45,011 nucleotides of DNA, from the NCBI GenBank assembly GCA_017651465.1, contig JAGCCX010000077.1:1-45011 (forward strand). The letters run 5' to 3'. Below the pieces are notes generated by a model. It was given only the letters and a program-made list of their open reading frames with translations, was not told the origin of the DNA and searched no databases. The DNA is from Bacteroidales bacterium (lineage in GTDB: Bacteria; Bacteroidota; Bacteroidia; Bacteroidales; UBA932). The translations under genes and the position numbers were made by a program. This document shows, one piece after another, positions 1 to 45,011 of the stretch. Within the stretch, counting starts at the first letter, position 1, and every line of letters starts with the position of its first letter.

Positions 1-1023
1 AATATGCTGGGTATGACCAAGGAGTCCAAGGCGGACTACCGTACTGCCCAGCGCAAGGTGGGAGAATACCGGGCAAAGAACGCCACCGGCGAGGCCTCGT
101 TCGCCGATACCACCAAGAAATACGACGCACTGCTGGCGCTTGACGCCGACTTTGCAAAGAAAGACTTCGACGACGAGCTGCTCCAGCACCGTGACATCGA
201 CATCCGCCTCCGTCCGCTTTACAAGTTCCACCTGGCGGCGCGTCCGGAGGAACGCAAGCTGGCCCTAAGCAGGCGTTACGAGAATGCTCTCATCGACCAT
301 TTCATCGATGCAGTGCCCGTTCCCGTGGTAGTTTCCAACAGCGACTCTCTTTCCACCCTCAAGCTTGTGCGCTCGCTGGGTTCCGTGCTTTCCGGAGACG
401 GCAGTTCCGGCGCCGGCACGGTCAACCTGAGCCCCTCCGAAACCTTCTTCCTGATGGGTATCTACGACGTACAGCAAAAGAACTATACCGGAGCTCTGAA
501 CTACTTCGACAAGGCTGTTTCGGCAGCCGGGAGCGAAGAAGAGAAAGACCGCTACTCGCGTTACTATAAGGCATTCTACCTTATGAACCGGGGCGTCCTG
601 CGGGCAGAGATGATTGAATTCATAGCCTCGCTCGAGGGCAACGTACAGACCCTGGCCATGGATGACCAGGGCGCCACCAGAGCGCGCGTAAGCGACCGGG
701 TTGCACGGAGTTACGATTATTCGGAAGCAATAGAAGATATGCAGGCAGCGACTGAAATCGTTCCGGATATTCCATATCTTTATTTCAACCTGGGCAATCT
801 CTACTGCCTTGGAGGCGAGATGGTCAATTCCATCGACGGATATACGCGCGCCATCACTCTTTATCCCGAGATGGGCGATGCGTACTTCAACCGCGGGTTG
901 GTGCTCATCTATCTTAAAGACAAGGAAAAAGGATGCATCGACCTGTCGCGTGCCGGGGAACTGGGAGTCAAAGACGCGTATAGCGTGATAGATAAATACT
1001 GCACTTCGGATGAGCTGCATTAA
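1..1023 (+). CDS. Tetratricopeptide-repeat protein, 5' end cut by window edge
   Basis: The reading frame is open to the first base, so the protein probably begins outside the window; an ATG at base 4 is possible but unproven. The visible part is about 340 residues. The C-terminal third carries TPR-like helices: a YLYFNLGNLYCLGG unit is followed by AITLYPEMGDAYFNRGLVLI and a short capping repeat with KEKGCIDLSRAGELG. A further TPR-like unit, ALNYFDKAV, lies near residue 155. TPR arrays act as protein-interaction scaffolds; no enzymatic domain is visible. The stop codon lies inside the start region of the next gene (14-bp overlap), so the two are probably co-transcribed. It contains the only CATG tetranucleotide found in the window. 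The specific role is unknown. Confidence 0.8.
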   Translation, partial: NMLGMTKESKADYRTAQRKVGEYRAKNATGEASFADTTKKYDALLALDADFAKKDFDDELLQHRDIDIRLRPLYKFHLAARPEERKLALSRRYENALIDHFIDAVPVPVVVSNSDSLSTLKLVRSLGSVLSGDGSSGAGTVNLSPSETFFLMGIYDVQQKNYTGALNYFDKAVSAAGSEEEKDRYSRYYKAFYLMNRGVLRAEMIEFIASLEGNVQTLAMDDQGATRARVSDRVARSYDYSEAIEDMQAATEIVPDIPYLYFNLGNLYCLGGEMVNSIDGYTRAITLYPEMGDAYFNRGLVLIYLKDKEKGCIDLSRAGELGVKDAYSVIDKYCTSDELH

Positions 1024-1819
1024 GTTCAAGTCTTTTTCGTCGGGAAGTTGCGGCAACTGTTACTTCCTGGGGCTGTTCGAGCCGGAAGGACGCCGCTGTG
1101 AGGCCGGAATAATCATCGATGCAGGAGTGAGCCCGAGAAGGCTCAAAAAAGAGCTGCAGATGGACGGGCTGTGTTTCGACGACTTCAGCGCTATTCTCAT
1201 AACCCACGACCATCTTGACCATATACGTTCTCTTGGTTCATTCTGCAAGCATATAGGCAAGCCGGTGTGGGCGACGGAAGAGCTGCACAGGGCGCTGTCG
1301 CGTCACTCTATGACCCGCTACCAAATATGCGACTACCGTATGGAGATGCGCCAGGGAGTCTGGAACGACGTGGTTCCCGGCCGAATAAAGGCGCGCTGCT
1401 TCACCGTCCCCCACGATGCCACCGAGACAGTGGGATACGCCATCCTGCTGGATTCATATAAGTTCGTGATAATGACGGACATAGGAAGAGTCACCGACGA
1501 GGCTCTCAACTGGGCGAGGCAAGCCGACACCGTGGTCATCGAAAGCAACTACGATCCGGAAATGCTCCGCCTCGGGCCCTATCCTCCCGACCTTCAGAAG
1601 CGCATTCGCAGCGGACACGGACACCTTTCCAATATCGAATGCGCCCAGGCAATCAGCAGCTTTAACCACCAGGGCCTGGAACACATATTCCTTTGCCACC
1701 TGAGCGAACACAACAATACTCCGGAGCTGGCTTACCGGGAGAGTCTGCCCTTTGCAGGCGACGCTTCGCTCGCGCCCCTTCCGCGCCAGAGCGCATCGCC
1801 TCTCATCATTTTACGATAG
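1010..1819 (+). CDS. Metallo-beta-lactamase-fold hydrolase (YycJ/WalJ-like)
   Basis: This 269-residue protein has the metallo-beta-lactamase zinc-binding signature HDHLDH at residues 66-71. It also has a SSGSCGNCY start, a later VPHDATETVGY histidine, an IMTDIG aspartate and a C-terminal FLCHLSEHNN segment. That order matches the YycJ/WalJ-type cytoplasmic MBL hydrolases, thought to be exonuclease-like phosphodiesterases. The family is recognised with confidence; the substrate is not. The start ATG lies 14 bp inside the upstream TPR gene, which suggests translational coupling. The 3' end overlaps the convergent amidase-like gene by 9 bp. Confidence 0.87.
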   Translation: MSCIKFKSFSSGSCGNCYFLGLFEPEGRRCEAGIIIDAGVSPRRLKKELQMDGLCFDDFSAILITHDHLDHIRSLGSFCKHIGKPVWATEELHRALSRHSMTRYQICDYRMEMRQGVWNDVVPGRIKARCFTVPHDATETVGYAILLDSYKFVIMTDIGRVTDEALNWARQADTVVIESNYDPEMLRLGPYPPDLQKRIRSGHGHLSNIECAQAISSFNHQGLEHIFLCHLSEHNNTPELAYRESLPFAGDASLAPLPRQSASPLIILR

Positions 1820-4792
1820 CACCCTGAGATCTGCGGGGGTAAAGTACAGGAAGCCGAACTGGTAGCTTCCCGGGCCGTCGGAGGGACCGTACATTCCAAA
1901 GAACTCCAGAACTTCGCGGAACACTTTTTCGCGGTCGGAATCCTTCTGCAGGCACTCCAAAGGCACGCCTATCGACACGGCCTTATGCTCCTGGGCATTG
2001 AATTTGACAGCTGCCGGCACGCCCGAATTGCCGTATCTAAGCCACACCGAGCCGCGTGAATCGGCATTCCGGATCCCGTCGGGATGGGGAACGGCATAGC
2101 ATTCCTCATTCAGTTCGTAGTAGAAGGGCATACGGGCAAGTTCGCCAGTATTGGTACCGAACGATGATGCCCAGCGGTATCCCAGCACCTCAGCGATAAA
2201 CTCCTTGGTGGCCTTGACCGCAGCCGGATCGGGCTTGACTCCGTAGATGTCTCCCCACACGTCAGTTGCAATGCGCGAGCCCGACACCAGGATGCTGCCG
2301 CCCCTCCGCGACCAGGCCCGCAAGGCGGACTGAAGGTTGTCGGGGAACACGCTATAGCGTGCCGGGTACGCCCCTCTGCCCGATTTTGTGGACAGCTGGG
2401 CTCCGCATATCAAGTCAAGGGCTCCGAAGCGCGAGGCAAGCGTAGTGTCGGCGCAGAAACTCTTGCTGGACATACTGCAGAACGGGAATCCAAGGTTAAG
2501 CAGCGCACGGCCGTGGACTGAAGGATAGTCGAAGGTATTGCCGGCTACCGGCACTCCGGCCTTGTCGCTGTAAGATCCCCCGAAGCCAGGAGCATCGTCG
2601 CTCTCCCACTGGAGGGGACGAGTAAACTCGTAATTCTCACCTATGTAAGTAATATCGCGGACGTACGGCATCCCGTTGTCAAGACGTGAGTCGAATCCCG
2701 CGTAATCGGGAGTATCTATCCACGCGGGCGGAGCCACCCGGTCGAAGTTGTTGACTATCAGCACCGCATCTCCCCTCGCCCGTACGGGCACTCCCACCGA
2801 CAGCACCTCCGAGGGGAAGCTGTCGCCGCCGTCATTCCAGGCAACCACCTTATAGGAATACACGTGTCCGGGCACGATCTGCATCGTGGCTTCGGGATCC
2901 GAAACCGGTACGCCCTCGTCGAATACTCCGTCGTCCACACGAGTATAGACGGTATATCCCTTGGCTGCGGCAGTAGGTTCGAGCGGGTCGGGAGTAGGAG
3001 CCCAGCTGAGCTGCACTTCCCCCTCGTCATTCAGCAAGGCGGAGAAAGCGTGCACCGGCAGTGGCTGTACGGAATAGCTCACTCCATATCGGCACGAGAG
3101 ATACTTGAGCAATCCTTTATACACGGCCCGGCTCACGGTAAAGCGGAAAGCGGGATCGAGGCCGTATTTCATATCGGCAAAGTTCTGATGCGAAAGAAGT
3201 TCCAGCAGCATAGCGGGAACATCAGTAGTGCGCGATTCGCTGTAGGAGCGGTCCCACAGCTGGCGGCGCTGCCACTTGGGTTCGTAGCTTTTGCGTATAT
3301 CTTCCACTACCTGGGTCTGGACAAAATCAGCGTAGGTCCGTGAAGTCATACGGTCGGTTCCGTCGGAGAACTTGCGGGAGTTGTCGCACTTGAGCGTATA
3401 GATAGAAAGGGTTCCTACGATACTGTCATTGGGCGTTACGCCCGCGTCGGTATGGAATGCCAGGGAGCAATCGAAAGGAATTCCCTTGGTCTTGCGCATC
3501 ATCCTGGTCCACGAGCCTCGGGCGGCATAGTCGCACACGTAATCGGTCTCCCATTCGCGGAGCGTACTGTCAGCTCCCGCCCAGGGCATCCAGTAGGAGG
3601 CGCCCTCGACATAGCTGGGCATACCAGAAATACGCCCTCCTCTCTGGATCTTGCCCATACCGCCGCCGAAGCGGACCGCATCGGCGCTCACCCACTCGCC
3701 GGAAGCGCCCTTATTGTCAAGTTCCACAAATCCCGGTCCGTCGGGAGCAAATTCGAAAGTACCCAGATATACCCAAGTGCCGCCTCCCTTGCGCTGATCG
3801 ACCTCGAACTCGGTTTTCCCTCCGAGGTGATAGACAGTGTAGTGGGCCGACTTGCAGTTACTGCGTCCGCTGCCGTAACTCACATACACGGCATATTCTC
3901 CCCTGCGACGGATGTCGGGAGTCCACCTGGCAACCGAAGCCGGAGTAATGCTGCAGGCCGCTTTACGGCAGGATCCCAGACGGAAAGGATTGTCGGTAAT
4001 GTCATAGACCTGCTTAAGGTCTGCAAAGCCCTCGCCGCCCTTTTCCCAGGAGCCCGACTCAGAATAGGTTCCCGCCGTACGCACAAGGCCCTCTCCGCTG
4101 CGGAGGAAGGTTGAGTCGTTATCACATACCGACTCCATACGCTGTATGTCTCGCTCGCGCGGAGTGAGCACGCAGGCGCCGGCATTCTCAAGCATAGGAA
4201 TCAGATAATCAAGCACATATCCCTGAGTGTACATATCCTCCACGGTACGGTGGAGGGCAGCCCTCTGCCAGCGCCACACGCCTTGCTCTTCGTTGAAATA
4301 ATAGCCGTGGCTCTGCCATAGGGCGATATGACGGCCCTCCAGTCCGCGCGTAAGCTTACGGGCTCCGACCCGGTGCACAAGCGGGAGCTTGGGAGAATTC
4401 TTTACCGAATAATGGAATGAAGGCGCCCGGCCGTTTCGTGTAATGGCAGGTGTCTCCAGTTCCTCGAGGCGGCAGCCGGAAGCCATACAGGAGCCGATGT
4501 TGTAGCCCTGCAGAGCCTTTTCGCCTTCGGTATTGAGCTCGGAGAGGAACCACAAGATGTCTTCGCTGTGCCAGGGATAATCGGAGAGCGAATTGGCAAA
4601 ATACAGGTCAAGCGCCTCCCCTCTCAAGTAAATCTTGTCTATGCGCACCCGTGAATTAACCTGGAAGCGGCGGTTACAGCGGGAGGTGAGGGTATCGCAT
4701 ACCACACTGAAATCTGCAGCGCGGGGAATGCCCTGCGCCGCCGCAGACAAAGCTGCAGCCAGAATGCCCAGTATGACAGCTAACCTACGCAT
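1811..4792 (-). CDS. Secreted N-acetylmuramoyl-L-alanine amidase-like protein with golvesin-like insert and FN3 domain
   Basis: A 993-residue exported protein with a clear signal peptide (MRRLAVILGILAAALSAAAQ). An Amidase_3-like fold seems to be split. A first part with LWQSHGYYF near residue 159 and a downstream Glu in RTVEDMY is followed by an insert at about 270-370 resembling golvesin C-terminal/xanthan-lyase-type carbohydrate-associated domains. The fold then resumes with LAFHTDAG near 445 and LLELLSHQN near 530. After that come a fibronectin type III-like domain (about 580-660) and a C-terminal alpha/beta region of about 300 residues starting at AVLIVNNFDRV. Bacteroidota homologues are often labelled xanthan lyase, but the visible catalytic features point to wall-peptide hydrolysis. 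Activity is inferred. The start overlaps the VanZ-like gene by 8 bp. Confidence 0.75.
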   Translation of the reverse strand: MRRLAVILGILAAALSAAAQGIPRAADFSVVCDTLTSRCNRRFQVNSRVRIDKIYLRGEALDLYFANSLSDYPWHSEDILWFLSELNTEGEKALQGYNIGSCMASGCRLEELETPAITRNGRAPSFHYSVKNSPKLPLVHRVGARKLTRGLEGRHIALWQSHGYYFNEEQGVWRWQRAALHRTVEDMYTQGYVLDYLIPMLENAGACVLTPRERDIQRMESVCDNDSTFLRSGEGLVRTAGTYSESGSWEKGGEGFADLKQVYDITDNPFRLGSCRKAACSITPASVARWTPDIRRRGEYAVYVSYGSGRSNCKSAHYTVYHLGGKTEFEVDQRKGGGTWVYLGTFEFAPDGPGFVELDNKGASGEWVSADAVRFGGGMGKIQRGGRISGMPSYVEGASYWMPWAGADSTLREWETDYVCDYAARGSWTRMMRKTKGIPFDCSLAFHTDAGVTPNDSIVGTLSIYTLKCDNSRKFSDGTDRMTSRTYADFVQTQVVEDIRKSYEPKWQRRQLWDRSYSESRTTDVPAMLLELLSHQNFADMKYGLDPAFRFTVSRAVYKGLLKYLSCRYGVSYSVQPLPVHAFSALLNDEGEVQLSWAPTPDPLEPTAAAKGYTVYTRVDDGVFDEGVPVSDPEATMQIVPGHVYSYKVVAWNDGGDSFPSEVLSVGVPVRARGDAVLIVNNFDRVAPPAWIDTPDYAGFDSRLDNGMPYVRDITYIGENYEFTRPLQWESDDAPGFGGSYSDKAGVPVAGNTFDYPSVHGRALLNLGFPFCSMSSKSFCADTTLASRFGALDLICGAQLSTKSGRGAYPARYSVFPDNLQSALRAWSRRGGSILVSGSRIATDVWGDIYGVKPDPAAVKATKEFIAEVLGYRWASSFGTNTGELARMPFYYELNEECYAVPHPDGIRNADSRGSVWLRYGNSGVPAAVKFNAQEHKAVSIGVPLECLQKDSDREKVFREVLEFFGMYGPSDGPGSYQFGFLYFTPADLRVLS

Positions 4793-5186
4793 TTTTCTTC
4801 TTCCGCGAGAACAACTTAATGAAAAAGGCTATGAAAGAACCGCAGATTAGGCCCAGACGGTCGGCGCCGAAGTCGGCGGGATCCATAGTCCGGTAAGGCA
4901 GTTTGCTCTGGATATATTCCGTTCCCCAGGCAAGACCGCAGCCGACAATAAACACGGCCACCAGCACAAGTAAGGTCTTCACTACTCCGCCGCGGCTGAG
5001 GCGCAGCGAGAAGAAAGCCAGCACAGGGAAGGGCAGGAACATCAAGAAATGCACGACTTTGTCGGCCGGAATCCCGAAGATGCTCGCCGGCGATGGGGGC
5101 AAAGCCGAGAATCTTGCAAAGCACAAAACGGCAACTGCTATGATATACAGCAGCGTGAGTATACGAAATATCCAGACTCTTCTCAT
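4785..5186 (-). CDS. VanZ-like small membrane protein
   Basis: A 133-residue protein with four predicted membrane segments: an N-terminal helix, a KVVHFLMFLPFPVLAFF segment, a VVKTLLVLVAVFIVGCGLAWG segment and a C-terminal helix. The acidic/Gln pattern WGTEYIQSKLPYRTMDPADFGADRLG is the usual VanZ-family hallmark (E-x-x-Q followed by D-x-x-A/D-N-x-x-G-like). VanZ homologues occur widely in envelope contexts and only some relate to teicoplanin resistance; no van genes are near. It overlaps the ABC exporter by 4 bp upstream and the amidase-like gene by 8 bp downstream, so the three form one translation-coupled set. Confidence 0.85.
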   Translation of the reverse strand: MRRVWIFRILTLLYIIAVAVLCFARFSALPPSPASIFGIPADKVVHFLMFLPFPVLAFFSLRLSRGGVVKTLLVLVAVFIVGCGLAWGTEYIQSKLPYRTMDPADFGADRLGLICGSFIAFFIKLFSRKKKNA

Positions 5187-7018
5187 AACGACTGCATATC
5201 ATAAAGTTTCTTGTAATACCCGTCACGGGCAAGGAGTTCCTCGTGGCGTCCCCTTTCCACTATGCGTCCTTCGTCCATCACCACAATCTCGTCGGCGCCC
5301 TTGACAGTACTCAGGCGATGTGCGATAGCAATGGTGGTACGGGTGCTCATAAGGCGGTCGAGGGCGTCCTGAACGGTGCGCTCCGACTCAGTGTCCAGGG
5401 ATGCCGTGGCCTCGTCGAGGATTAGAATGGGAGGATTCTTGAGTATGGCTCTGGCGATGCTGATACGCTGGCGCTGACCGCCGCTGAGCTTGACTCCGCG
5501 GTCGCCGATGTTGGTATCGTAGCCTTCTTCCTTCTCCATTATGAACTCGTGCGCATTGGCAATGCGCGCAGCCGCCTCAACCTGCTCGCGGGTGGCATCC
5601 TTGACGCCGAATGCGATATTGTTGAAGATGGTATCGTTGAAGAGGATGGGATCCTGGTTCACATTGCCGATCAGGCCTCTCAGATCGCGAAGGGCCATAT
5701 CCCTCACATCCACCCCGTCGATGCTGATACTCCCCCCGGACACATCGTAGAAACGGGGAATGAGGTCAACCAGCGTAGATTTTCCGGCCCCGGATGCTCC
5801 CACTATTGCAAGTGTATAGCCCTTGGGGATGGAGAGAGTCACGTCCCTAAGCACTTCCCTGCCGTCTTCGTAATGGAAGCTTACGCCTTTCAGCTCGATG
5901 CTATCCTTGAAATCACTGACCTTTACGGGATCGGGACGTTCGGTAATGGAGTTCTCGGCGTTCAGGATCACATCTATCCTTTCCATACTGGCAAGTCCGC
6001 GCGGGATGCTGTAAGCAGCTTTGGCGAGCTCCTTGATGGGCTGGATGACGCTGTACAGGACAACCATATAGAAGATGAAGGTGGGCGCATCGATGACCGA
6101 GCGTTCACCCAGGATGAGGGTACCGCCGAACCAGAGCACGATAGCGATCATCAGGGTACCCAGGAATTCGCTCACCGGGTGTGCCAGTACCTGACGGGTG
6201 GCAACGCGGGAGTTCTTGCGCTTCATAGCGTCGGTCACGCCCTCAAAGCGGTTGGACATCTTCTTTTCGGCCAGGAAGGCCTTGATGATACGCAGGCCGC
6301 CAAGAGTCTCTTCCACCTGGCTCATAGTGTCGCTCCAGAGCGTCTGGGCCTCGGTGGACTGCCGCTTGAGCTTGCGTCCTATCAAGCCCATAAGCCACAT
6401 CATAACCGGCGCGAACACCAGCACGAATACGGTCAACTGCCAGGAAATGACTATCAACGTAGCCATATAGAACACAATCAGAATAGGATTCTTGATGAGC
6501 ATATCCAGCACGCTGGTGATGGAGTTCTCCACTTCCTGGACATCTCCGCTCATACGGGCGATAATATCGCCTTTCCGCTCCTGGCTGAAATAACCCAGAG
6601 GCAGGGCGAGAATCTTATTGTAGATTTGAACACGCAGGTCTTTGACTATGCCCGTGCGTATCGGGACCATCACTGCGGAAGCGCCGAAATAACAGGAAGT
6701 CTTGACTGCGGTAAGAAGCGACAGCGAGAGGCAGAGCAGCAGGAGCACCGTGCCGGCGCCCCACTTGCCCATTGCCTCGGTTACATACCAGTAAAGGTTG
6801 TTTATAAGTATATCCTTGAAAGATGCGGTATCGGAGTTCCAGGCTATGAATTCATACTGCATTTCATTGATATTGAACAGAATCTGCAATATCGGAATAA
6901 GCAGCGAGAACGAAAACACATTGAACACGGCCGACAGTACGTTGAGTACCACCGACCCGCCCAGATACCCTTTATAAGGTGAAGCGTAACGTTTTAATAT
7001 CTTCCAGAAATCCTTCAT
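5183..7018 (-). CDS. MsbA-like ABC exporter (fused membrane and ATPase domains)
   Basis: A 611-residue half-transporter. Residues 1-330 form a six-helix ABC type-1 exporter domain. The ATPase domain has Walker A GASGAGKST near 409, signature LSGGQRQR near 512, Walker B ILILDEATASLD near 533 and an H-loop in IAIAHRLSTV. Length and architecture match MsbA-type lipid A-core flippases and other homodimeric lipid or peptide exporters. Neighbouring VanZ and amidase-like genes favour an envelope substrate, but specificity cannot be read from sequence. It lies 3 bp downstream of the PiT gene and may be transcribed with it. Confidence 0.9.
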   Translation of the reverse strand: MKDFWKILKRYASPYKGYLGGSVVLNVLSAVFNVFSFSLLIPILQILFNINEMQYEFIAWNSDTASFKDILINNLYWYVTEAMGKWGAGTVLLLLCLSLSLLTAVKTSCYFGASAVMVPIRTGIVKDLRVQIYNKILALPLGYFSQERKGDIIARMSGDVQEVENSITSVLDMLIKNPILIVFYMATLIVISWQLTVFVLVFAPVMMWLMGLIGRKLKRQSTEAQTLWSDTMSQVEETLGGLRIIKAFLAEKKMSNRFEGVTDAMKRKNSRVATRQVLAHPVSEFLGTLMIAIVLWFGGTLILGERSVIDAPTFIFYMVVLYSVIQPIKELAKAAYSIPRGLASMERIDVILNAENSITERPDPVKVSDFKDSIELKGVSFHYEDGREVLRDVTLSIPKGYTLAIVGASGAGKSTLVDLIPRFYDVSGGSISIDGVDVRDMALRDLRGLIGNVNQDPILFNDTIFNNIAFGVKDATREQVEAAARIANAHEFIMEKEEGYDTNIGDRGVKLSGGQRQRISIARAILKNPPILILDEATASLDTESERTVQDALDRLMSTRTTIAIAHRLSTVKGADEIVVMDEGRIVERGRHEELLARDGYYKKLYDMQSL

Positions 7019-7021
7019 TAT

Positions 7022-8098: not shown

Positions 8099-8099
8099 A

Positions 8100-10222: not shown

Positions 10223-10227
10223 AGCTG

Positions 10228-11385: not shown

Positions 11386-11396
11386 ATACTTACTAA

Positions 11397-12596: not shown

Positions 12597-12601
12597 AATC
12601 G

Positions 12602-29531: not shown

Positions 29532-29556
29532 TTTAAAATTTTTTACAAAATCTGTA

Positions 29557-29564: not shown

Positions 29565-29576
29565 GGAAATAATTGA

Positions 29577-29584
29577 TATTTTTG
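29577..29584 (+). promoter_or_regulatory. Putative -7 box for the ROK regulator gene
   Basis: TATTTTTG on the plus strand ends 18 nt before the ROK start and matches TAnnTTTG. No good -33 TTG at the usual spacing. The two divergent -7 boxes are 12 bp apart, so the two promoters probably interfere or are co-regulated. Confidence 0.5.
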
Positions 29585-29602
29585 CATAAGAACCACGACG
29601 CA

Positions 29603-36094: not shown

Positions 36095-36104
36095 AGCTCA
36101 ATTA

Positions 36105-38531
36105 TTAATTTTTCTGCGAATAGTAGTCGTACGAGTGGTACCCGCCGTATCCATAACGATAACCATAGCTGCCGCGTCCGGACGACATTTCAGTTGCGTT
36201 CAGAAGGAGCGAAAGGTTCTTGAGAGTACCCTTTTCGTAGATATCTTCAATCTCGTGGATCATTACCTTGTCCAGCAAGCCCGAACGGACGATGAAGATA
36301 GTGCGGTCGGCAATCTCGGAAATAATCTGGGTATCGGCTACGATATTGAACGGAGGGCAGTCGATAAGGATGTAGTCATACTCGCCCTTCAGGGAAGCTA
36401 TCAGTTCGGCGAACTGGCGGCTGCCCACAAGTTCACTGGGGTTGGGAGGGATGGTACCGACCGGCAGGATGGTAAGGGAATCATACTCCTCCACTTTCAC
36501 CATCACGGAATTGATATCTATACCCTCGCCGGAGAGGTAATTGGAAAGGCCCTTCTTGGGGCTGCCCACCAGGGCGGAGAGCGAGGCGTGACGCAGGTCT
36601 CCGTCAACTAGCAGCACCTTGAAGCCCTTGATGCTCAAGGCTGCTCCCAGATTGGAAGTAACGAAAGTCTTACCGGAACCGGGATTGAACGAAGTGGTTA
36701 TGATAACGTGGTTGGAAGATCCGCGGTTCATAAACTCGAGGTTGGTACGGCATACCCTGAACGCTTCATTCACGGCGTCTCTCTTGCCGTGATGCACCAG
36801 GAACGACACTTTGTCTTCGCTCTTCTTTTTGATATCCTTAAGCTTGAAATTCTTAAGTTTGTTAATCGTGCTCAGCCTGTCGTTGCCGTGCAGGGGCACT
36901 TCGCCGAGGAAGGGAGCCTTGATGGCTTCGAGATCCTTGCGGTCCCTGATCTTGGTATCGGTGACGGTCATCAGGTACAGCACGGCCAGAGGAATGAGGA
37001 GCCCAAGCACGAAAGCAATCAAGAGTATCTGCCTGGTATTGGGCGAAGTCGGCCTCGGCGAACCCGTAGGCCGGGTGATAACCCTTGTGTTGTAGGCGGT
37101 GAAAGCCTGCGAAAGTTCATTCTCTTCCCTCTTCTGGAGGAGGAAGATGTACAGAGCTTCCTTAACCTTCTGCTGACGCTCGACGCTGAGGAGGTACTGC
37201 GACTGCTTGGGGTTGTCCGCCAGGCGTGAGGTAGCCCTCTGCTCGGCCTTCTGGATATTGCTGATCTGGGCCTGGAGAGTGTTGATGAGGTCATCGACCG
37301 ACGCCAGGATGGTAGAACGCATATCGTTCAGGTTGGCGTTCATCTCCTGCACGATGGGGTTGCGCTCCGAGGAGTTGGCAACCAGGTTGTTGCGCCTCAG
37401 GACAAGGTCGTTGTACTTACCTATCTGATTGGTGATGTTGATGTTGGACAGGCTCGGAGGTGACGGGAGCATCTTGGAATAGTCGTCGGACGAGCTCAGG
37501 CTGGTACGCACATAGCGGGCGGAATACAGCTGGTTGTCAAGATCCTGCAGCTGGCGTGTAGCCTCCTGGCTCTGTGACATATACATACTCGACACTGCGG
37601 CCACGTCAGGAATGACATAACGGCTCTTGTAGTTCGAGATGTCGGTATCCACGTTGCCGAGGTCCTGCTCGATGGCGGCCAGACGGTCATCGATAAAATG
37701 TGAAGTACTGACGGCGGTCTTGTTGCGGTCGTCCACCCAGTTCTCGTTATACACGGTGAGCACCATATCAAGAACATCCTCCGCCCTGCGGGGGCTCTGG
37801 TCGGTGATGGTAAGGGCCAGCACATCGGAATAGTTCTTGGTGTTGAGGGCCGAAGCGGAAAGCCTGCTGTTGTATGAAGAAGTGGCTCCCTGGATGGAGT
37901 AGTGATTGATGAAAATAGGCTGGCTGACCACCGAGAGCGAGTCCACGAGCGATATGATGAGCTGCCCTGCAGCAGTGGCAAGAGTGTCACCGTAGGCGGC
38001 CTCATAAGTCTTGCTTTCCTTTGAATTGGGCACCGTCATCTCCAGCTTGAATCGGCTTGCATCGTCCTTGATCGGAGTAAGTTCGAAATCGACCCTGCCG
38101 GCAGGTTCCAGGAAGCGGGCGCGGATAGGCAGCCCGGTGCCGTAGATGACGTGCTTGCGGGCGCGGCCTGCAACGCTGTAATTGAAATCAAGGCCCATTC
38201 GCTGGACGACCTCACGCATAAGGTCGGGCGACTGGAGGGCGATGATTTCGTTGGCGAGCTTGGAATTCTGCTGTGTCATACCGCCGGCCGAGAGCATCGA
38301 CTCCAGGTCGTTGGTAGTACGGCGAATGGCCGACTCCTTGATAAGGACGGTGGATGAACGGGTATATACTTTAGGGGTTTTGACCAGATAGAATGTCGCA
38401 ATGCACATACACAAGAGCACGGAGGCCACGAACCAATACCACTTGGAAGCACATTTTAAAAGGAAATCCTTTAAGTTGAAGCTTTCCCCTTGATCTTGCT
38501 GATTGCGGTTAAGAGAAGTATTATCTGCCAT
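36105..38531 (-). CDS. Wzc-like polysaccharide co-polymerase with tyrosine autokinase domain
   Basis: An 808-residue inner-membrane protein. The N-terminal Wzz domain begins after MADNTSLNRNQQDQGESFNLKD with a first membrane helix near 35-50. A large periplasmic coiled-coil region follows, then a second membrane helix (ILLIAFVLGLLIPLAVLYLM, about 500-520). The cytoplasmic BY-kinase has Walker A FNPGSGKTF near 615, Walker A' VLLVDGDLRHASL near 642 and Walker B YILIDCPPF near 722. The tail is a tyrosine cluster with eight Tyr in the last 25 residues, the expected autophosphorylation site. No partner tyrosine phosphatase is in the window. Confidence 0.92.
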   Translation of the reverse strand: MADNTSLNRNQQDQGESFNLKDFLLKCASKWYWFVASVLLCMCIATFYLVKTPKVYTRSSTVLIKESAIRRTTNDLESMLSAGGMTQQNSKLANEIIALQSPDLMREVVQRMGLDFNYSVAGRARKHVIYGTGLPIRARFLEPAGRVDFELTPIKDDASRFKLEMTVPNSKESKTYEAAYGDTLATAAGQLIISLVDSLSVVSQPIFINHYSIQGATSSYNSRLSASALNTKNYSDVLALTITDQSPRRAEDVLDMVLTVYNENWVDDRNKTAVSTSHFIDDRLAAIEQDLGNVDTDISNYKSRYVIPDVAAVSSMYMSQSQEATRQLQDLDNQLYSARYVRTSLSSSDDYSKMLPSPPSLSNINITNQIGKYNDLVLRRNNLVANSSERNPIVQEMNANLNDMRSTILASVDDLINTLQAQISNIQKAEQRATSRLADNPKQSQYLLSVERQQKVKEALYIFLLQKREENELSQAFTAYNTRVITRPTGSPRPTSPNTRQILLIAFVLGLLIPLAVLYLMTVTDTKIRDRKDLEAIKAPFLGEVPLHGNDRLSTINKLKNFKLKDIKKKSEDKVSFLVHHGKRDAVNEAFRVCRTNLEFMNRGSSNHVIITTSFNPGSGKTFVTSNLGAALSIKGFKVLLVDGDLRHASLSALVGSPKKGLSNYLSGEGIDINSVMVKVEEYDSLTILPVGTIPPNPSELVGSRQFAELIASLKGEYDYILIDCPPFNIVADTQIISEIADRTIFIVRSGLLDKVMIHEIEDIYEKGTLKNLSLLLNATEMSSGRGSYGYRYGYGGYHSYDYYSQKN

Positions 38532-38546
38532 AGTAGGATTATTTGC

Positions 38547-39377
38547 TTAGTTGGTTATTGCCGCTGTTCTCATAGCCACGACGGTAATTGTCGAAACGAT
38601 TGTGGCGGCGAGGGATGCGATGGAAATCCAGAAGGAAGTACTCAGAACGGTATTTCCATTGATGGTAGATTGCCTTGTACGCATCTCGTTGGGTTCCACG
38701 TAAATCAAGTCGTTCTGGCAAATGTAGTATGCAGGGCTCTGCACCAGGTTTTCCATCGAGCGCAGGTCGATGAGGTAAGTCTTCTGGACTCCTCCTTCCT
38801 CGCGGATGACACGGATATTGTCACGGCGGCCCAGAATGGTAAGGTCACCGGCGAGCGCAAGAGCGTCGAGGATGGTGACCTGGTCTCTTACTATTGCGTA
38901 GCGTCCGGGACGGGTGACCTCGCCCATAAGCGATACGTAAAGGTTGAGGTAGTCCACTGTAACCACCGGGTCACGTATCAGGTCCTGGGCCATAAGTTCG
39001 TTCTTGATCTTGTCCGCTACCTCTGCCCTGGTAAGGCCGGCAACGAGAATCTTGCCTATCACCGGGAAGTCGATATTACCGTCAGCGTCAACGATATAAC
39101 CGCTTACTCCGGTGTTATAGTTGGTGGCGCCCTCGATGGTGGAGCCTACATAGCGCGACACATAAGGGAGGTTGAACTGCTGCATCAGTTCCACTCCGTT
39201 ACAGTTCACTACGATACTGATTTTGTCGGCAGGACGCAGACGTATGGGCTCAACTGCAACATCGTTGCGGATTTCTTTATCTGAAGAATCCTGGAAATAA
39301 ACCACATTGGTGGGGGCGGAACAGGCAGACAGAATGGCGGCCGCCGCCGAGATAGCAATTATCAAATGTTTCTTCAT
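38547..39377 (-). CDS. Wza-like polysaccharide export lipoprotein
   Basis: A 276-residue protein with a lipobox (ILSACS) after a short signal, a Poly_export domain (LRPADKISIVV, GYIVDADGNIDFPVIGKI, GLTRAEVADKIKNEL) and one SLBB-like domain (VSLMGEVTRPGRYAI). A C-terminal hydrophobic helix (about 250-270) may span the outer membrane or anchor the ring. It forms the outer-membrane pore for polysaccharide export with the Wzc-like partner 15 bp downstream. ATG was chosen over a GTG two codons upstream. It is the first gene of the export operon. Confidence 0.92.
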   Translation of the reverse strand: MKKHLIIAISAAAAILSACSAPTNVVYFQDSSDKEIRNDVAVEPIRLRPADKISIVVNCNGVELMQQFNLPYVSRYVGSTIEGATNYNTGVSGYIVDADGNIDFPVIGKILVAGLTRAEVADKIKNELMAQDLIRDPVVTVDYLNLYVSLMGEVTRPGRYAIVRDQVTILDALALAGDLTILGRRDNIRVIREEGGVQKTYLIDLRSMENLVQSPAYYICQNDLIYVEPNEMRTRQSTINGNTVLSTSFWISIASLAATIVSTITVVAMRTAAITN

Positions 39378-39383
39378 ACACAC

Positions 39384-39421
39384 AAAAAGGGATAATCGTG
39401 CAAATATAGCACAATTATCCC
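39384..39421 (-). terminator. Rho-independent-type stem-loop followed by T5, overlapping the operon promoter
   Basis: Minus-strand reading gives GGGATAATTGTGC, a 7-nt loop TATATTT, GCACGATTATCCC and then TTTTT. The 13-bp stem has one mismatch. It lies just after the glutamine synthetase gene and 7 nt before the export-operon ATG, so it would stop read-through from the upstream gene. The loop contains most of the -7 box of the operon promoter. Confidence 0.65.
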
Positions 39422-39431
39422 ATAATTACAA
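39401..39431 (-). promoter_or_regulatory. Promoter of the polysaccharide export operon
   Basis: A -7 box TATATTTG (39401-39408) is preceded by a -33 TTG (39429-39431) with a 20-nt spacer, the best Bacteroidota-type promoter in the window. The predicted start near 39395 gives a leader of about 18 nt before the wza-like ATG. It sits inside a 13-bp dyad that may also act as an operator. Confidence 0.65.
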
Positions 39432-39441
39432 TTAATAAGAC

Positions 39442-40857
39442 CTACGCGAGATGAAGATTGTCTTCAAAACTGCAGTCCCGGTCGGTGAAGGATTTAAGGC
39501 AGCTGATCAGATAATCCAGCATTGCGTCCGAGAATACTCCGCAGGAAGTATAAATCCGGCGGTCCTTTTCAAGCTCTTCCGCGGCTGCGGCGCAAGAGGC
39601 GGGAAGCTGCTCGAGCGACTCCCGGATAGCGTCGTTGCCGGCTGCGTGGATGTTGACTCCAAGGCCTACATAGGTCCTGCGGGCCACTTCGAGAGCGTCG
39701 GGCATTTCGAATCCGTGACGGGCCGCCGCGCACAGCGAGGCCATCAGCAGATAAGTATTTGCGGTTGCATCCGAAGCCCTCCATTCGAAGGTTGCCTTGT
39801 CCGAAAAGTCCTTCGTCTCACTCTTCTCCCCGGGATTGCAGACGGCCGCCATATCGACCTTGCTTGTCCAGCCGAGCGGAACCCTCACAAGGGCGCTGCG
39901 GTTGGAATGTGACCAGCACAGGGAGGTAGGGGCCTCCTGATTGGGCACCAGGCGCATAAACGCCAGTGGATGGGGATTGCCGAAAGCAGTCAGGGACGTA
40001 CCGGCGTCCATAAAGCCGGCTATCGCCCTGCGGACCACATCGGTAATGTCTCCCCCTTCCACCATCACGCTCTTTCCGTCGCGGGTAAACTTGCAGTGGA
40101 CGTGCATTCCCGAACCCGCCTTGCCGCTGGTAATCTTGGGAGCGAAGGTGATGGTCAGGCCATATTTGTATGCCAGGCGGCGCATCACCCATTTGGCCAG
40201 CACCAGCTGGTCGGCGGCGTCTTCGATATCTACAGGCAGGAACTCTATCTCGTTCTGCTCGTATATCTTCCCGTCCATACAGAAATTACCCACCTCGCTG
40301 TGGGCATACTTCACCATTCCGCCCACCTGGGTTATGTAGCGCACCGCCTCTACCCGAAAATCGGCGAACTTGTTGAATGGCGCACTCTCGTGATAGCCTC
40401 TCTGGTCGGCGATATGATACATTCCGTCGTCGGGTGCGATTATGTAGTATTCAAGCTCGCCCATCGTCTGCATCTCAAGCCCCGTTTTCTCTTTGAAAAC
40501 CTTGTGGGCCTTGTGCAGTACATATTCGGGAGAACTCTCGAAAGGCTCGCCGTCACGATTGAAAAAAGAGCAGAGAACGCCTACCGTGGGGACTTCGCAG
40601 AAAGGATCACGGAATGCTGTACGGTATCGGGGAATCACGTAAAGGTCGCTTTTGCCGGCCTCCACGAAGGGGAAAAGGCTCGATCCGTCAACCCGCTCCC
40701 CCGCTTCGAGAATGTTGGTGAGATGCTCGCGGTCGCGGACTACGAAGTTCAGGGTTTTAAGGCGTCCGTCCCAGCCGCAATAATGAAAATTGAAGATTTC
40801 TACTTTGTTGTCAAGGCAATACTGTATCAGTTCCGCCTTCGTTCGGATGTTCAGCAT
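39442..40857 (-). CDS. Glutamine synthetase family protein
   Basis: A 471-residue class I glutamine synthetase-like enzyme. The N-terminal beta-grasp region has FHYCGWDGRLK and GERVDGSSL. The catalytic domain carries MGELEYYII, QNEIEFLP, SGMHVHCKF, FGNPHPLAFMRLVPNQEAPT, SNRSALVRVPLG and TFEWRASDATANTYL, which cover the usual metal, ATP and glutamate sites. The GSI adenylylation motif NLYDLP is not evident. It most likely makes glutamine, but a related gamma-glutamyl ligase function cannot be excluded. Divergent from the M64 peptidase gene across a 65-bp gap. Confidence 0.87.
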   Translation of the reverse strand: MLNIRTKAELIQYCLDNKVEIFNFHYCGWDGRLKTLNFVVRDREHLTNILEAGERVDGSSLFPFVEAGKSDLYVIPRYRTAFRDPFCEVPTVGVLCSFFNRDGEPFESSPEYVLHKAHKVFKEKTGLEMQTMGELEYYIIAPDDGMYHIADQRGYHESAPFNKFADFRVEAVRYITQVGGMVKYAHSEVGNFCMDGKIYEQNEIEFLPVDIEDAADQLVLAKWVMRRLAYKYGLTITFAPKITSGKAGSGMHVHCKFTRDGKSVMVEGGDITDVVRRAIAGFMDAGTSLTAFGNPHPLAFMRLVPNQEAPTSLCWSHSNRSALVRVPLGWTSKVDMAAVCNPGEKSETKDFSDKATFEWRASDATANTYLLMASLCAAARHGFEMPDALEVARRTYVGLGVNIHAAGNDAIRESLEQLPASCAAAAEELEKDRRIYTSCGVFSDAMLDYLISCLKSFTDRDCSFEDNLHLA

Positions 40858-40888
40858 ATAGTTTTAGGCGCTTAATAAATGTGGGCAG

Positions 40889-40896
40889 CAAAATTA
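40889..40896 (-). promoter_or_regulatory. Putative -7 box for the glutamine synthetase gene
   Basis: TAATTTTG on the minus strand matches TAnnTTTG and lies about 31 bp before the start codon. No TTG -33 at the usual distance. It is the minus half of a divergent promoter pair. Confidence 0.45.
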
Positions 40897-40909
40897 CGGA
40901 TAAAAATCG

Positions 40910-40917
40910 TATTTTTG
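40910..40917 (+). promoter_or_regulatory. Putative -7 box for the M64 peptidase gene
   Basis: TATTTTTG on the plus strand matches TAnnTTTG and ends 5 nt before the ATG, again suggesting a very short or absent leader. The -33 region is poor. Confidence 0.45.
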
Positions 40918-40922
40918 CGCTT

Positions 40923-42131
40923 ATGAAGCGAATTATTTGCCTGTTGACATTTCTGTCTGCCGCCTTCTGCCTGAGGGGGCAGGAAGGCACTCTGCGCCTT
41001 GATTATTCTTTTTCGGGGACAGCCTCCACCGCCTTCATTTCACTCGACGAACTCCGTTCCCTCCAAGGCTGGGCAGGACGGCGCTCGCATCTGCAGGAGG
41101 TTCCTCTCAAGGGCAACGGACAGATAAGCGTGCGCTCCGAGGCCGACAGCACCATCCTGTACCGCAGCTCGTTCAGCACCCTGTTCCAGGAGTGGCAGAA
41201 TACTCAAGAAGCCACCCAGGTACAAAGGAGTTTCGAGAATGTGTTTCTGGTGCCTATGCCCACCGCTCCCTGCATAGTGTGCGTAGAATTGTACGACGTG
41301 CACGGCCGCACGCAGGCATCCCTCTCCCACAGGGTCGATCCCGCGGACATACTGATACGCCCGGCCACCGGCAATCCCGAAGTAAAGGACCTGCTCATCA
41401 GCGGCCCGGCGGACAAATGCATAGACGTTGTAATCGTGGCTGAAGGTTATACCGCATCGGAAATGGATACTTTCTGGAAAGATGCCCGCAGGGCCGTATG
41501 CTCCATACTCTCCCACGAGCCGTTCAAGACTTATAAGGGCCGCTTCAACTTCCGGGCGGTGGGGCTGCAATCCCCCGAGAGCGGAGTCAGCATACCGGGC
41601 AAAGGCGTATGGAAGAACACTCCCCTTCACTCCCACTTTGACACCTTTTATTCCGCTCGCTACCTAACTACCCTCAACATCAAGGATTTACACAACGCCC
41701 TGGCGGGAGTTCCATACGAGCACATTGTTATTCTGGCAAATACCGACAATTACGGCGGCGGAGGCATTTACAATTCCTACACTCTTACCACCGCTCACCA
41801 CGCTTCGTTCCGTCCGGTGGTTGTACACGAGTTCGGACACAGCTTCGCCGGACTCGCTGACGAATACTATTACGACGACCAGTACAGCAACTATTACTTC
41901 CCCGACTGCGAGCCCTGGGAGCCCAATATCACCACGATGAATGATTTCTCATCCAAGTGGGAAGATATGCTCGGAGAGAAAGGAGTGAGCGTTATCGAGG
42001 GCGGCGGATATATGAGCAAGGGCGTATGGAGGGCTTGTCCCGACTGCCGGATGAAGACCAATACCGCTTCCGGCTTCTGCCCCGTATGCCGCCGGGCCAT
42101 CGAGCGGATGATCAAGTTCTACACAGAGTAA
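40923..42131 (+). CDS. Secreted M64-family metallopeptidase
   Basis: A 402-residue exported protein with a signal peptide (MKRIICLLTFLSAAFCLRGQ). The zinc site HEFGHSFAGLADEY (His302, Glu303, His306) is the M64 (IgA-peptidase-like) signature. The N-terminal part (about 20-150) is the family's beta-rich M64 prodomain-like region. The C-terminus has two CxxC pairs (CPDC, CPVC) that could hold a structural metal. Bacteroidota M64 enzymes are periplasmic or surface peptidases; the substrate is unknown. The start was set at MKRIIC because the 14 upstream codons are not signal-like. Its stop abuts the PAP2 gene with no gap. Confidence 0.88.
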   Translation: MKRIICLLTFLSAAFCLRGQEGTLRLDYSFSGTASTAFISLDELRSLQGWAGRRSHLQEVPLKGNGQISVRSEADSTILYRSSFSTLFQEWQNTQEATQVQRSFENVFLVPMPTAPCIVCVELYDVHGRTQASLSHRVDPADILIRPATGNPEVKDLLISGPADKCIDVVIVAEGYTASEMDTFWKDARRAVCSILSHEPFKTYKGRFNFRAVGLQSPESGVSIPGKGVWKNTPLHSHFDTFYSARYLTTLNIKDLHNALAGVPYEHIVILANTDNYGGGGIYNSYTLTTAHHASFRPVVVHEFGHSFAGLADEYYYDDQYSNYYFPDCEPWEPNITTMNDFSSKWEDMLGEKGVSVIEGGGYMSKGVWRACPDCRMKTNTASGFCPVCRRAIERMIKFYTE

Positions 42132-42899
42132 TCAGAACTGAATGGATATGCTGGTCAGATACGAAGAGCTTAGGGGATCGGCATACGGGACTACTGCCAG
42201 CTGCACGCGGCGCCCGCCCAAACCATCCCAACTGCAGTCCGGAATACTCAGCAAACTCTTGACCGGCTTGAGCAGCCACTCCCCTGCGTGCGCCGCCAAT
42301 ATCCCCAGGCCGGCACCAGCCAGCACATCTCCCAGCCAGTGACGGTTGCCGTAAATGCGGTCGGCAGCGGTATAAATCCCCATAGCATAGGCCCCGGCGC
42401 CCCAGAGTGGGCCATAATCCATCCTCACCAGCTCGGCGCCCGTGAAAGCAAGGATCGTATGTCCCGAGGGGAAAGACTTGTAGTCTCCCCCGTCAGGCCT
42501 GAGGCTATGGAAAAGGTACTTGGGGATGCGGCTCAGTCCGAAGGCGAGCAAATGCGAGACGGACGATTCGATGGCCCTGTCCAGGAAAGAATGTGAAGCC
42601 CTGCAGCCCACAAGCCCGAGCCCCAGATGCATAGCCGAAGGCACATACTGGACATATGTGCCTATATCGTGGAAGGGTGCCTCTCCGCCGCGGCGCAGGT
42701 CCTGCTGCACATAGTCATTGAGCGGAATTTCAATTGCTTCGTGCCCGAAATAGTGCACTCCCAGGCCGGCGCCTACAAGTACCCCGGGAGCTATGAGCTG
42801 CGAGGGTCGGAAAGCCCGGCGTTCAAGAGTGTCACACGCAAACTGGGCCCTTGCGGGCAAAGCCGCCAAGAGCAGGAGCAACAGGCACAGACGGCGCAT
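42132..42899 (-). CDS. PAP2-family phosphatase (lipid phosphatase-like)
   Basis: A 255-residue protein with a cleavable N-terminal signal (MRRLCLLLLLLAALPARAQ) and several membrane helices. The three PAP2 motifs are present: KYLFHSLRP near residue 126, SFPSGHT near 145 and NRHWLGDVLAG near 185. PAP2 enzymes dephosphorylate lipids such as undecaprenyl pyrophosphate, phosphatidate or lipid A; substrate cannot be told here. It lies 3 bp after pdxA, in a cluster that is otherwise vitamin and nucleic-acid genes. Confidence 0.9.
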   Translation of the reverse strand: MRRLCLLLLLLAALPARAQFACDTLERRAFRPSQLIAPGVLVGAGLGVHYFGHEAIEIPLNDYVQQDLRRGGEAPFHDIGTYVQYVPSAMHLGLGLVGCRASHSFLDRAIESSVSHLLAFGLSRIPKYLFHSLRPDGGDYKSFPSGHTILAFTGAELVRMDYGPLWGAGAYAMGIYTAADRIYGNRHWLGDVLAGAGLGILAAHAGEWLLKPVKSLLSIPDCSWDGLGGRRVQLAVVPYADPLSSSYLTSISIQF

Positions 42900-42902
42900 A
42901 GA

Positions 42903-43994
42903 CTATGCTATCTGGGGACGGCCGGAGCGGTCGCGGCGCTCGGTTCCCTCAAGATGACGCTCCTCCATCTTGCCGGCTTGCAAGGCAGCATAGTCGGCCC
43001 TGGCATTGAAAATATCGATGGCGGTAAAGATAGCCGAACGCATAGAATGAGGATCCGCCTCGTCACGACCGGCCATATCGAATGCCGTGCCGTGATCCGG
43101 AGATGTCCGCACAATGGGCAGGCCGGCGGTGTAGTTCACGCCGTCCTCGAACGAGAGAGCCTTGAAAGGAGCAAGCCCCTGGTCGTGATACATCGCCAGG
43201 GTGGCGTCAAAACGCTCGTAGTGGCTCAGGCCGAAGAAGCCGTCGGGAGAGAAAGGCCCGAAAGCCAGAATGCCCTCTGAAGTGGCCTGTGCCACAGCAG
43301 GGATAATAATATCCTGCTCTTCGCTGCCGAGCAGGCCTCCGTCGCCGCTGTGGGGATTGAGGCTCAGTACGGCGATGCGCGGCTGGTCGATGCGGAAATC
43401 TTCCTTGAGCGAACGGTCCATAAGGCGCAGTTTGCTCACAATCTTATCTTTGGAGATGGAGCCGGCTACATCTTTGAGAGGAATGTGTCCGGTGACCACA
43501 CCCAGCCTCAGCCTGTGACTGGTCATAAGCATAGTCACGTCGCCCACTCCGAACTGCTGCTGCAAATACTCGGTATGGCCCGGGAAACCGAAGCCCTGGC
43601 CCGACATAGCCTTTTTGTTTATCGGCCCCGTGACGAGCACATCCAGCAGTCCTGCCTTTATATCCTCGACCGCCTTCGCAAGAGAAGTGATGGCGGCCCT
43701 GGCAGAGTCGGCAGTGGCCTGGCCAGGCTCGGCGAACACATTGTCCGGCAAGCAGTTAAGCACATTGATGCGCTTTGGTTTGGCATCCGCAGCCGAAGTA
43801 ATCACATTCGAGTCGAGCTGCTCTATTTCGGGTATCGTCTTCTTATAAAAACCGAACAACTTGGACGAGCCGTACACCACAGGAGTAAAGAACTCCAGTA
43901 TCCTGGGATCCGACAGTGCCTTGATGATGACTTCGTATCCTATTCCGTTGGAGTCACCTTGAGTTATTCCTACTATTGGTTTTCTTTTCTGCAT
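42903..43994 (-). CDS. pdxA: 4-hydroxythreonine-4-phosphate dehydrogenase
   Basis: A 363-residue NAD-dependent dehydrogenase of the DXP-dependent pyridoxal 5'-phosphate pathway. Evidence: the N-terminal VGITQGDSNGIGYEV, metal-binding histidines in FPGHTEYLQQ, MYHDQGLAPFKAL and RTSPDHGTAFD, and VVTGHIPLKDVA. These match PdxA across the full length. A C-terminal tail of about 20 residues is rich in Arg and Glu. It begins one base after the RNase HI gene ends. Confidence 0.93.
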   Translation of the reverse strand: MQKRKPIVGITQGDSNGIGYEVIIKALSDPRILEFFTPVVYGSSKLFGFYKKTIPEIEQLDSNVITSAADAKPKRINVLNCLPDNVFAEPGQATADSARAAITSLAKAVEDIKAGLLDVLVTGPINKKAMSGQGFGFPGHTEYLQQQFGVGDVTMLMTSHRLRLGVVTGHIPLKDVAGSISKDKIVSKLRLMDRSLKEDFRIDQPRIAVLSLNPHSGDGGLLGSEEQDIIIPAVAQATSEGILAFGPFSPDGFFGLSHYERFDATLAMYHDQGLAPFKALSFEDGVNYTAGLPIVRTSPDHGTAFDMAGRDEADPHSMRSAIFTAIDIFNARADYAALQAGKMEERHLEGTERRDRSGRPQIA

Positions 43995-43995
43995 A

Positions 43996-44442
43996 TTATT
44001 GACTTAAAATATATCCTTCATCTTGAGGTAATCCGGGCTTGGAATAAGCGGCTACGGCAAGGGCGTCGCAACGTTCGTTCTCGGGATGCCCGGCGTGCCC
44101 CTTGAGCCAGTGGAAAGTAATACTGAACTTCGAATAGAGCTCATCGAAGCGGGCCCACAGGTCCCCGTTTTTCTTCCGTTTCCAGCCTTGAGTAACTGTA
44201 TTGACCACATATTGAGAATCACTCCACACCTCGACGGAGGCTCCCTGCCAAAGAATGGCCTCAAGCCCCTTGATCACGGCGAGCAGCTCCATACGGTTAT
44301 TGGTGGTGAGGGCGAAACCGCCGCTCATCTCCTTGCGCAAGTTGCCGCACCGCAGCACGGCACCCCACCCTCCCGGGCCGGGATTGCCGCTGGCAGCTCC
44401 GTCAGTATAGAGATATATAATCTCTGATCTGGTCATATTCAT
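43996..44442 (-). CDS. rnhA: Ribonuclease HI
   Basis: A 148-residue RNase HI that cleaves RNA in RNA-DNA hybrids. The four acidic catalytic residues are visible: Asp14 in [17 protein letters not shown], Glu in NNRMELLAV, Asp in VWSDSQYV and Asp in [10 protein letters not shown], with the [11 protein letters not shown] loop. The start [15 protein letters not shown] is inside the recX gene (41-bp overlap); the alternative MTRSEII at 44436 still overlaps by 35 bp. The frame runs 45 codons further upstream but without homology. Confidence 0.92.
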
Positions 44443-44854
44443 ATCCGCGCGAAAGCGCAAATTTAATAAGTTTAAACTTTTTCTGAGGGTCCCCTTCCAA
44501 ACTTGCCGCCTTAGCCTGCAGGAGTTTGGACAGTTTATCGGAAGCGGCCTGAGTGTCAACAGTTTCCAGCGCTTCATCGATCAGCTCCGGCGCAATGCCT
44601 TTGGATCTTAAGGCAAAGCGTATCTTCACCGGCCCCCAGCCCTGCAGCCGGGCTTTCTCACGGGCAAACGCCCCGGCATAGCGAAGGTCGTCCACAAAAC
44701 TATCCTTCACCAGGCTCTCCACTACTTCACCGGCCGAAACGGCGTCCCCCTCAAGGGCTTTCAGCGCCTTGGACATAATATCTTTGCGGCAGTACTCCCG
44801 TTTGGAGCAGAGGCCCTCAAGGGTGTCGAGTACCTTCTTTGACTTCTCGTCCAT
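44402..44854 (-). CDS. recX: RecX-family regulator of RecA
   Basis: A 150-residue three-helix-repeat protein. The RecX pattern is seen in [54 protein letters not shown] and the C-terminal [12 protein letters not shown]. RecX binds RecA filaments and limits recombination. The start [12 protein letters not shown] was chosen because it directly follows the stop of the upstream barrel gene (TGATATG). An in-frame ATG six codons upstream (44872) is possible and would overlap by 17 bp. Confidence 0.85.
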
Positions 44855-44855
44855 A

Positions 44856-45011
44856 TCAGAAGTCAAAGCCAAGCGAAACGTACATACCCAAATCGTATTT
44901 GGTCTCGTGGAAGCGGTCCGACCAATATCCCACGACCTTGATGGGGCCTATTCTGGTATTGTAACCGACTTCAAGGCCGGCACCCCACAGGGTTGGCAGA
45001 GCGGTCTTGAT
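44856..45011 (-). CDS. C-terminus of an outer-membrane beta-barrel protein, patatin/BamA-like (partial)
   Basis: Only the last 51 codons are in the window. They read as alternating strands with GAGLEVGYNTRIGPIKV, a WSDRFHETKYDLG turn and a final YVSLGFDF. The terminal Phe and this ending resemble the Omp85-like barrel that closes Bacteroidota patatin-like phospholipases. The family call is tentative because the rest of the gene lies outside. It lies directly upstream of recX. Confidence 0.65.
   Translation of the reverse strand: MKTALPTLWGAGLEVGYNTRIGPIKVVGYWSDRFHETKYDLGMYVSLGFDF

Follow-up and report, generated by a model that had tools for sequence, protein, structure and literature searches.

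How can one four-letter word disappear almost completely from a long stretch of bacterial DNA, and what would remove it? The window discussed here, the whole stretch of 45,011 bases that was analysed (bases 1-45011 of contig C75 of a Bacteroidales genome designated G000), has a single copy of the palindrome CATG. A preliminary description of this DNA had put forward two causes, selection against the site by a CATG-cutting, NlaIII-like activity and C-to-T decay following methylation of its C, and had preferred the latter.

Depletion of CATG in the Window and the Genome

Two features of the window are referred to below:

1..45011, no strand: the window, CATG-emptied native DNA with 1 CATG against 144 expected; the aligned sister genome G023 has 114 (42,122 window columns)
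657..660, + strand: the sole CATG of the window, in the phase ..C|ATG of a TPR-protein ORF (4-1023, +); G023 has TATG

An exact count confirmed that the copy at 657 to 660, previously found by eye, is the only one. Base composition predicts 173 copies, within the range of roughly 150-200 suggested beforehand, while a maximal-order Markov model built from the window's own trimers gives 144. The resulting observed/expected ratio of 0.007 is the lowest among all 256 tetramers, and this short palindrome is therefore under-represented beyond the effects of base and trimer composition. Other palindromes had been described as ordinary. This holds for CCGG (275 observed, 311 expected), TGCA (178/195), and GTAC (142/168), but not for CTAG (6/39) and GATC (121/211), which are low as well, although far less so than CATG. 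The proposed excess of TATG and CATA is confined to the latter: CATA occurs 304 times, 2.0 times the expectation from composition, whereas the 154 copies of TATG amount to merely 1.1 times. Since most long ORFs of the window, as judged by eye, lie on the minus strand, the excess of CATA is one of TATG in the coding sense.

The G000 assembly comprises 2.52 Mb in 85 contigs and is 95% complete. A survey covered 451,196 bases, about 18% of the assembly, with contig L005 (all N) excluded. Of 172 windows of 2.5 kb, 110 lack CATG altogether, while it occurs once in 20, twice in 11, and at least three times in 31; the 219 copies in the surveyed 451 kb are mostly found within islands. The GC content is 56% in the 2.5-kb windows with at most one CATG and 48% in those with three or more. 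Thus, the emptying covers the native DNA of G000 and spares lower-GC islands and imported DNA. The earlier idea of a genome-level force is correct for native DNA, but it has to be qualified by the CATG-rich islands and by the restriction of the trait to particular lineages.

Recurrence within the Genus

The rpoBC region was compared in 60 genomes of the genus. In nine of these, CATG stands at 0.07-0.21 of the expectation from composition:

CATG-emptied at rpoBC: G097, G152, G047, G121, G046, G022, G000, G059, G098

The next genome is G143, at 0.43, and the remaining ones lie at 0.61 and upward. The rpoBC region of G143 (L113) has 36% GC, compared with 44-61% in the other genus members of the set. 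Two further genomes are also emptied, G184 (0/38, 0/45, 0/24, 0/72, and 2/74 observed/expected) and G342 (0/36, 1/81, 1/72, and 2/82), which brings the emptied genomes known in the genus to 11. When the trait is mapped onto an rpoB tree with 58 genomes (two short rows of the 60 were omitted), it needs at least seven changes, and the count is the same with starred branches only. Its scatter on this tree is neither significantly clustered nor significantly dispersed (42 of 500 shuffles were as low). CATG emptying is thus patchy and recurrent within one genus.

Timing and Direction of the Loss

The sister genome G023 has ordinary CATG. It shares 95.9% identity with G000 in the rpoBC region and 90% across 52,438 columns in which both were aligned with the outgroup G120. 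The rpoBC region has 33 copies of CATG in G023 and 8 in G000; across all aligned columns of the pair the numbers are 299 and 19. The emptying is therefore recent. In the three-way columns, 86 copies shared by G023 and G120 can be regarded as ancestral; G000 retains nine of these, compared with a median of 80% for tetramers in general. Conversely, G023 retains nine of the ten copies shared by G000 and G120. Because of this asymmetry, most of the loss falls on the G000 branch. The same columns contain 31 gains of CATG on the G023 side and none on the G000 side.

A second pair, G098 and G108 (93% identical), shows the same tendency, with 12 of 32 copies of CATG kept against a median tetramer retention of 0.88. 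The other depleted lineages, for which the references are more distant, kept 0-5 of 16-32 copies. Nine depleted genomes together gained six copies of CATG, while nine unbiased controls gained 100 (123 in all twelve controls; G023, G108, and G096 were dropped, since their reference is a depleted genome). The force against CATG is still acting or ended very recently.

Codon Phase and Substitution Spectrum

The way in which sites were lost distinguishes selection from biased mutation. The phase ..C|ATG accounts for 74 of the 86 ancestral sites and CAT|G for 11. In the former phase, 66 sites changed, 65 of them at the base preceding ATG (T 48, A 9, G 8) and one otherwise; 64 of these polarised escapes are synonymous and two nonsynonymous. 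Ten of the 11 CAT|G sites changed (CATA 5, CACG 4, CATC 1), and six of these changes altered the protein, five of them by G>A, which speaks against selection for harmless escapes. When all CATG sites of G023 are counted, polarised or not (the ancestral counts being those polarised with G120), changes are found at 206 of 218 ..C|ATG sites (177 synonymous), at all 16.CA|TG sites (14 synonymous), and at 53 of 55 CAT|G sites, where 35 became CACG (35 synonymous, 18 not).

Fourfold-degenerate codons allow the rate and the spectrum to be read together. An ancestral C before ATG changed at 29 of 32 such sites (T 15, A 7, G 7), compared with 228 of 1565 elsewhere (T 92, A 66, G 70); in other codons an ancestral C changed at 32 of 37 sites before ATG versus 147 of 1874 elsewhere. 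The rate ratio at fourfold sites is about 15, obtained as ln(32/3)/ln(1565/1337), and has a hand-estimated range of roughly 9 to 25, as three sites were kept. Because the substitution spectrum is near ordinary, it is fixation that was altered and not mutation. Because the escapes follow the reading frame (T, A, or G at the third base, and CAT|G to CAC|G), selection is favoured, and deamination of C was not the main cause. Mostly synonymous escapes, an ordinary spectrum, and a rate raised about 15 times correspond to removal by selection, not to a site-specific mutation bias.

Methylation of the C in CATG, followed by deamination, would turn the word into TATG and CATA with no selection on the site. 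Such changes make up 53 of the 77 polarised losses (35 CATG>TATG, 18 CATG>CATA), and half of the changed polarised CAT|G sites became CAT|A at the cost of an amino-acid change. However, T is the sole silent option at twofold codons, the proportions of T, A, and G at fourfold codons are close to the background, and CAT|G escaped mostly via T>C, which deamination of C cannot produce. The losses are not dominated by C>T or G>A regardless of codon position, and no C5 methyltransferase (PF00145) was matched in G000, the one genome covered by that search. Decay as the main cause, preferred in the preliminary description, is thus very unlikely. A minor contribution may exist, as T is slightly over-represented at fourfold sites and CAT|A accounts for five of the ten CAT|G changes.

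Search for the Agent

The assembly of G000 has no match to the endonuclease family ICEA (PF05315) or to D12-class methyltransferases (PF02086), in addition to lacking a C5 match. IceA cassettes are likewise absent from its nearest relatives, G023 and G120. The DNA methyltransferases seen in G000 are an orphan within a defence island on C78, that of a type I system on C17, and one on C9 that adjoins a helicase. The orphan is located as follows:

L003:1792-3132 (G000:C78): orphan DNA methyltransferase of G000, in a CATG-rich island

The orphan is a possible but unsupported CATG agent. It has matches in ten other genomes of 400, with a best identity of 30%, and none of these is among the other ten genomes known to be emptied. 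It also has plasmid relatives (47 records), three of which were inspected and share their gene order; the stretches around these three bear CATG (28/31, 15/30, and 27/30). The type I genes (C17, L239) and the methyltransferase-helicase pair on C9 (L006) were judged unlikely agents, by type only.

On a Sinorhizobium plasmid (L241:3890-9190), the one record whose neighbours were scanned, the DNA methyltransferase is followed by PRTase-CE and ORC-CDC6-like genes, and the same gene order occurs on Moraxella and Bradyrhizobium plasmids. These genes may form a conflict system with kinship to the orphan of G000. The island on C78 that contains the orphan also has a SMODS nucleotidyltransferase adjoining an S_4TM effector, a CBASS-like pair (L003:6455-8349).

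Other emptied genomes give a similar picture. G046, G059, and G098 are not among the D12 or ICEA positives and G047 is not among the ICEA positives, where absence is read from non-appearance among the positives of samples that included these genomes. PF02384 has no match in G046, G047, G059, or G098. G046, G059, and G098 each have a single weak PF01555 match, and matches like it turn up in most of the 15 genomes searched, sisters included; apart from this recurrent match, PF01555 and PF02384 revealed nothing common to the unexplained emptied genomes among those 15. In total, no CATG system was identified in seven of the 11 emptied genomes: G000, G022, G046, G047, G059, G097, and G098. The agent of G000 would be unassembled, just lost, or of an unrecognised kind.

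The last of these options can be extended to several genomes. An unrecognised CATG-targeting system might be present in G000 and in at least three others, G046, G059, and G098. It would have arisen or spread repeatedly in the genus and could empty a genome over only a few percent of divergence. Such a system may even consist of a nuclease alone, which the cell tolerates now that its native DNA is rid of CATG. The four genomes have no IceA or D12 match, the last three have no HsdM-type match (C5 having been covered in G000 only), and the G000 orphan is the only N6/N4 methyltransferase match above cut-off in the four. A system of this kind is rather unlikely.

IceA Cassettes in Relatives and in Other Phyla

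Titles of references give CATG as the recognition word of iceA1 and hpyIM (NlaIII/IceA1, HpyI). In PMC5700931, CATG is tabulated as methylated in H. pylori; PMC3261200 twice prints 'CTAG' for NlaIII.

Matches to ICEA were found in four of 400 genomes of the genus. Three of these, G121, G184, and G342 (a partial match where the contig ends), are emptied of CATG; the fourth is G382. The genus cassette combines ICEA with two methyltransferases, one of the D12 class and a second one. By contrast, G382 has ICEA and yet ordinary CATG (29/46, 40/54, 26/28, 10/33, and 53/90); its cassette is perhaps a recent arrival. In G118, where CATG is intermediate (27/74 and 33/76), a D12 methyltransferase stands alone, and the gene beside this methyltransferase also follows the cassette of G382. 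In G152, both cassette methyltransferases are present with a different gene in the position of the endonuclease:

L185:5386-6651 (G152:C26): endonuclease-like gene between two CATG-type methyltransferases, with weak EVE, NucS, and Alw26I-type matches

Among the 400 genomes, this gene was found only in G152, apart from fragments in G184 and one weak match in G319; it was set aside as a candidate agent. The G184 fragments lie beside its IceA gene, which suggests swapping of the cutter. At L057/L060, the emptied genomes G047 and G121 have D12 genes that were rejected as the CATG enzyme: their neighbours, inspected by eye, look like DpnII-type GATC cassettes, and the CATG-type D12 gene of G121 is located elsewhere (C58).

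In a wider survey, 80 ICEA loci were kept of 114 confirmed in genome_contigs. Within 4 kb of ICEA, a D12 gene is present at 74 of these and a second methyltransferase at 72. CATG could be evaluated at 69 loci (nine had fewer than 3,000 bases outside the cassette and two had too low an expectation), with values that describe local flanks and not whole genomes; three of the 69 are the genus genomes G121, G184, and G382, already counted. CATG is under 0.3 of composition at 38 loci and absent from nine, including Helicobacter, Nicoletella, and an alphaproteobacterium, while at 15 loci it stands at 0.5 or more. It is the lowest palindrome at just 11 of the 69. IceA cassettes of other phyla thus often, but not always, lie within CATG-poor DNA. 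At loci over 18 kb (n = 43), the observed/expected ratio is under 0.3 for CATG at 20 of 43, for GATC at 22 of 43, and for CTAG at 11 of 31, and under 0.1 at 14, 9, and 9 loci, respectively; that GATC is low at as many long loci as CATG counts against a specific link.

That IceA-family cassettes accompany emptied DNA in relatives also bears on the molecule under selection. CAUG in transcripts could be the target, for example of a sequence-specific RNase; most sites lie within genes, and a palindrome gives no strand information. However, the family found in the emptied relatives is a DNA endonuclease, and eight of the ten intergenic CATG sites of G023 have changed in G000 too, although some of these may be transcribed. 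Selection at the RNA level is extremely unlikely.

Probable Selection by a Restriction Activity

A CATG-specific restriction activity probably selected against CATG in the G000 lineage after its split from G023; the probability of this reading is put at roughly 0.7. An NlaIII/IceA-type restriction-modification system, or a functional equivalent, would have begun to act after the split. If protection of self-DNA were imperfect, which would be the source of the cost, each CATG would be an occasional self-cutting hazard. Changes that remove the site with no harm to the protein would then be favoured and fixed, leaving native DNA nearly free of CATG, while recently imported islands and recombined stretches would retain it. 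The frame-dependent escapes, their raised synonymous rate, the transversions, and the cassettes of relatives agree with the NlaIII-like alternative of the preliminary description; the corresponding gene was not found in G000, where an endonuclease is a presumed agent whose gene would be missing from the assembly or lost very recently. Against an endonuclease stand also the seven emptied genomes with no identified system and the ordinary CATG of G382.

It is known that host genomes avoid the sites of Type II restriction systems and that lost systems can leave traces (PMC4687349). The present case resembles the avoidance described there in that a short palindrome is strongly under-represented and a system for it occurs in related genomes, here four of 400 in the genus and not the nearest relatives; cases with no system in the genome are described there too. 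It differs in the almost complete emptying of native DNA on one short branch, in the use of sister genomes to establish the direction and the codon routes of the loss, and in the proportion of emptied genomes lacking an identified system. It shares the word of NlaIII/IceA1 (HpyI) and, in G121, G184, and G342, the IceA endonuclease and D12 methyltransferase; it differs in the second methyltransferase of the genus cassette, in the other gene at the endonuclease position of G152, and in the absence of a match in G000. No prior report of CATG emptying was found in the open-access literature searched. Site avoidance itself is known; what is unusual here is its completeness, the short time, selection read from sisters, recurrence in a genus, and the missing agent.

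Avoidance has mostly been read from static counts. In two close pairs, G000/G023 and G098/G108, the branches are short enough for sequence comparison to measure how strongly avoidance acts, in which direction, by which codon routes, and how far it has gone at present. In this genus CATG was emptied repeatedly, sometimes with a known CATG system and more often with none identified, and the lack of a word may be the sign of a defence system invisible to annotation.

Residual CATG

Sixteen copies of CATG are kept in both G000 and G023. They sit in stretches with a median local difference of 0.045, compared with 0.13 for the 283 lost sites, and several of these stretches differ by only about 1%. 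They would be recent recombinants from CATG-normal relatives, or slowly evolving DNA. At most two or three copies are found in G000 only, among all aligned columns. Two of these may be real gains, one being the copy at 657 of the window, whose polarity comes from the sister only; the third is shared with the outgroup G120, so that G023 has more likely lost it.

These copies bear on whether the system is still present. A CATG restriction-modification system could have acted on the G000 branch and since been deleted, which would explain both its absence from the assembly and the tolerated CATG-rich stretches. The lack of IceA, D12, and C5 matches, the CATG-rich 2.5-kb windows, the low divergence around the kept sites, and the lone methyltransferase of G118 are consistent with this, and such traces are described in PMC4687349. 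However, almost no CATG has returned to G000, and none in the three-way columns, so the deletion must have been very recent, and an equally recent loss would have to apply to seven emptied genomes. Deletion of the system is a possible, though less likely, reading.

Other Palindromes

Stretches of G000 outside the window are likewise poor in CTAG and, to a lesser degree, in GATC. CTAG is low across many genomes of the genus. For GATC, 49 of 70 ancestral sites are kept in G000 versus 49 of 55 in the sister. In the rpoBC region of G059 (L101), GATC occurs three times against 64 expected, together with CATG at 13/68; two words have been emptied in one genome.
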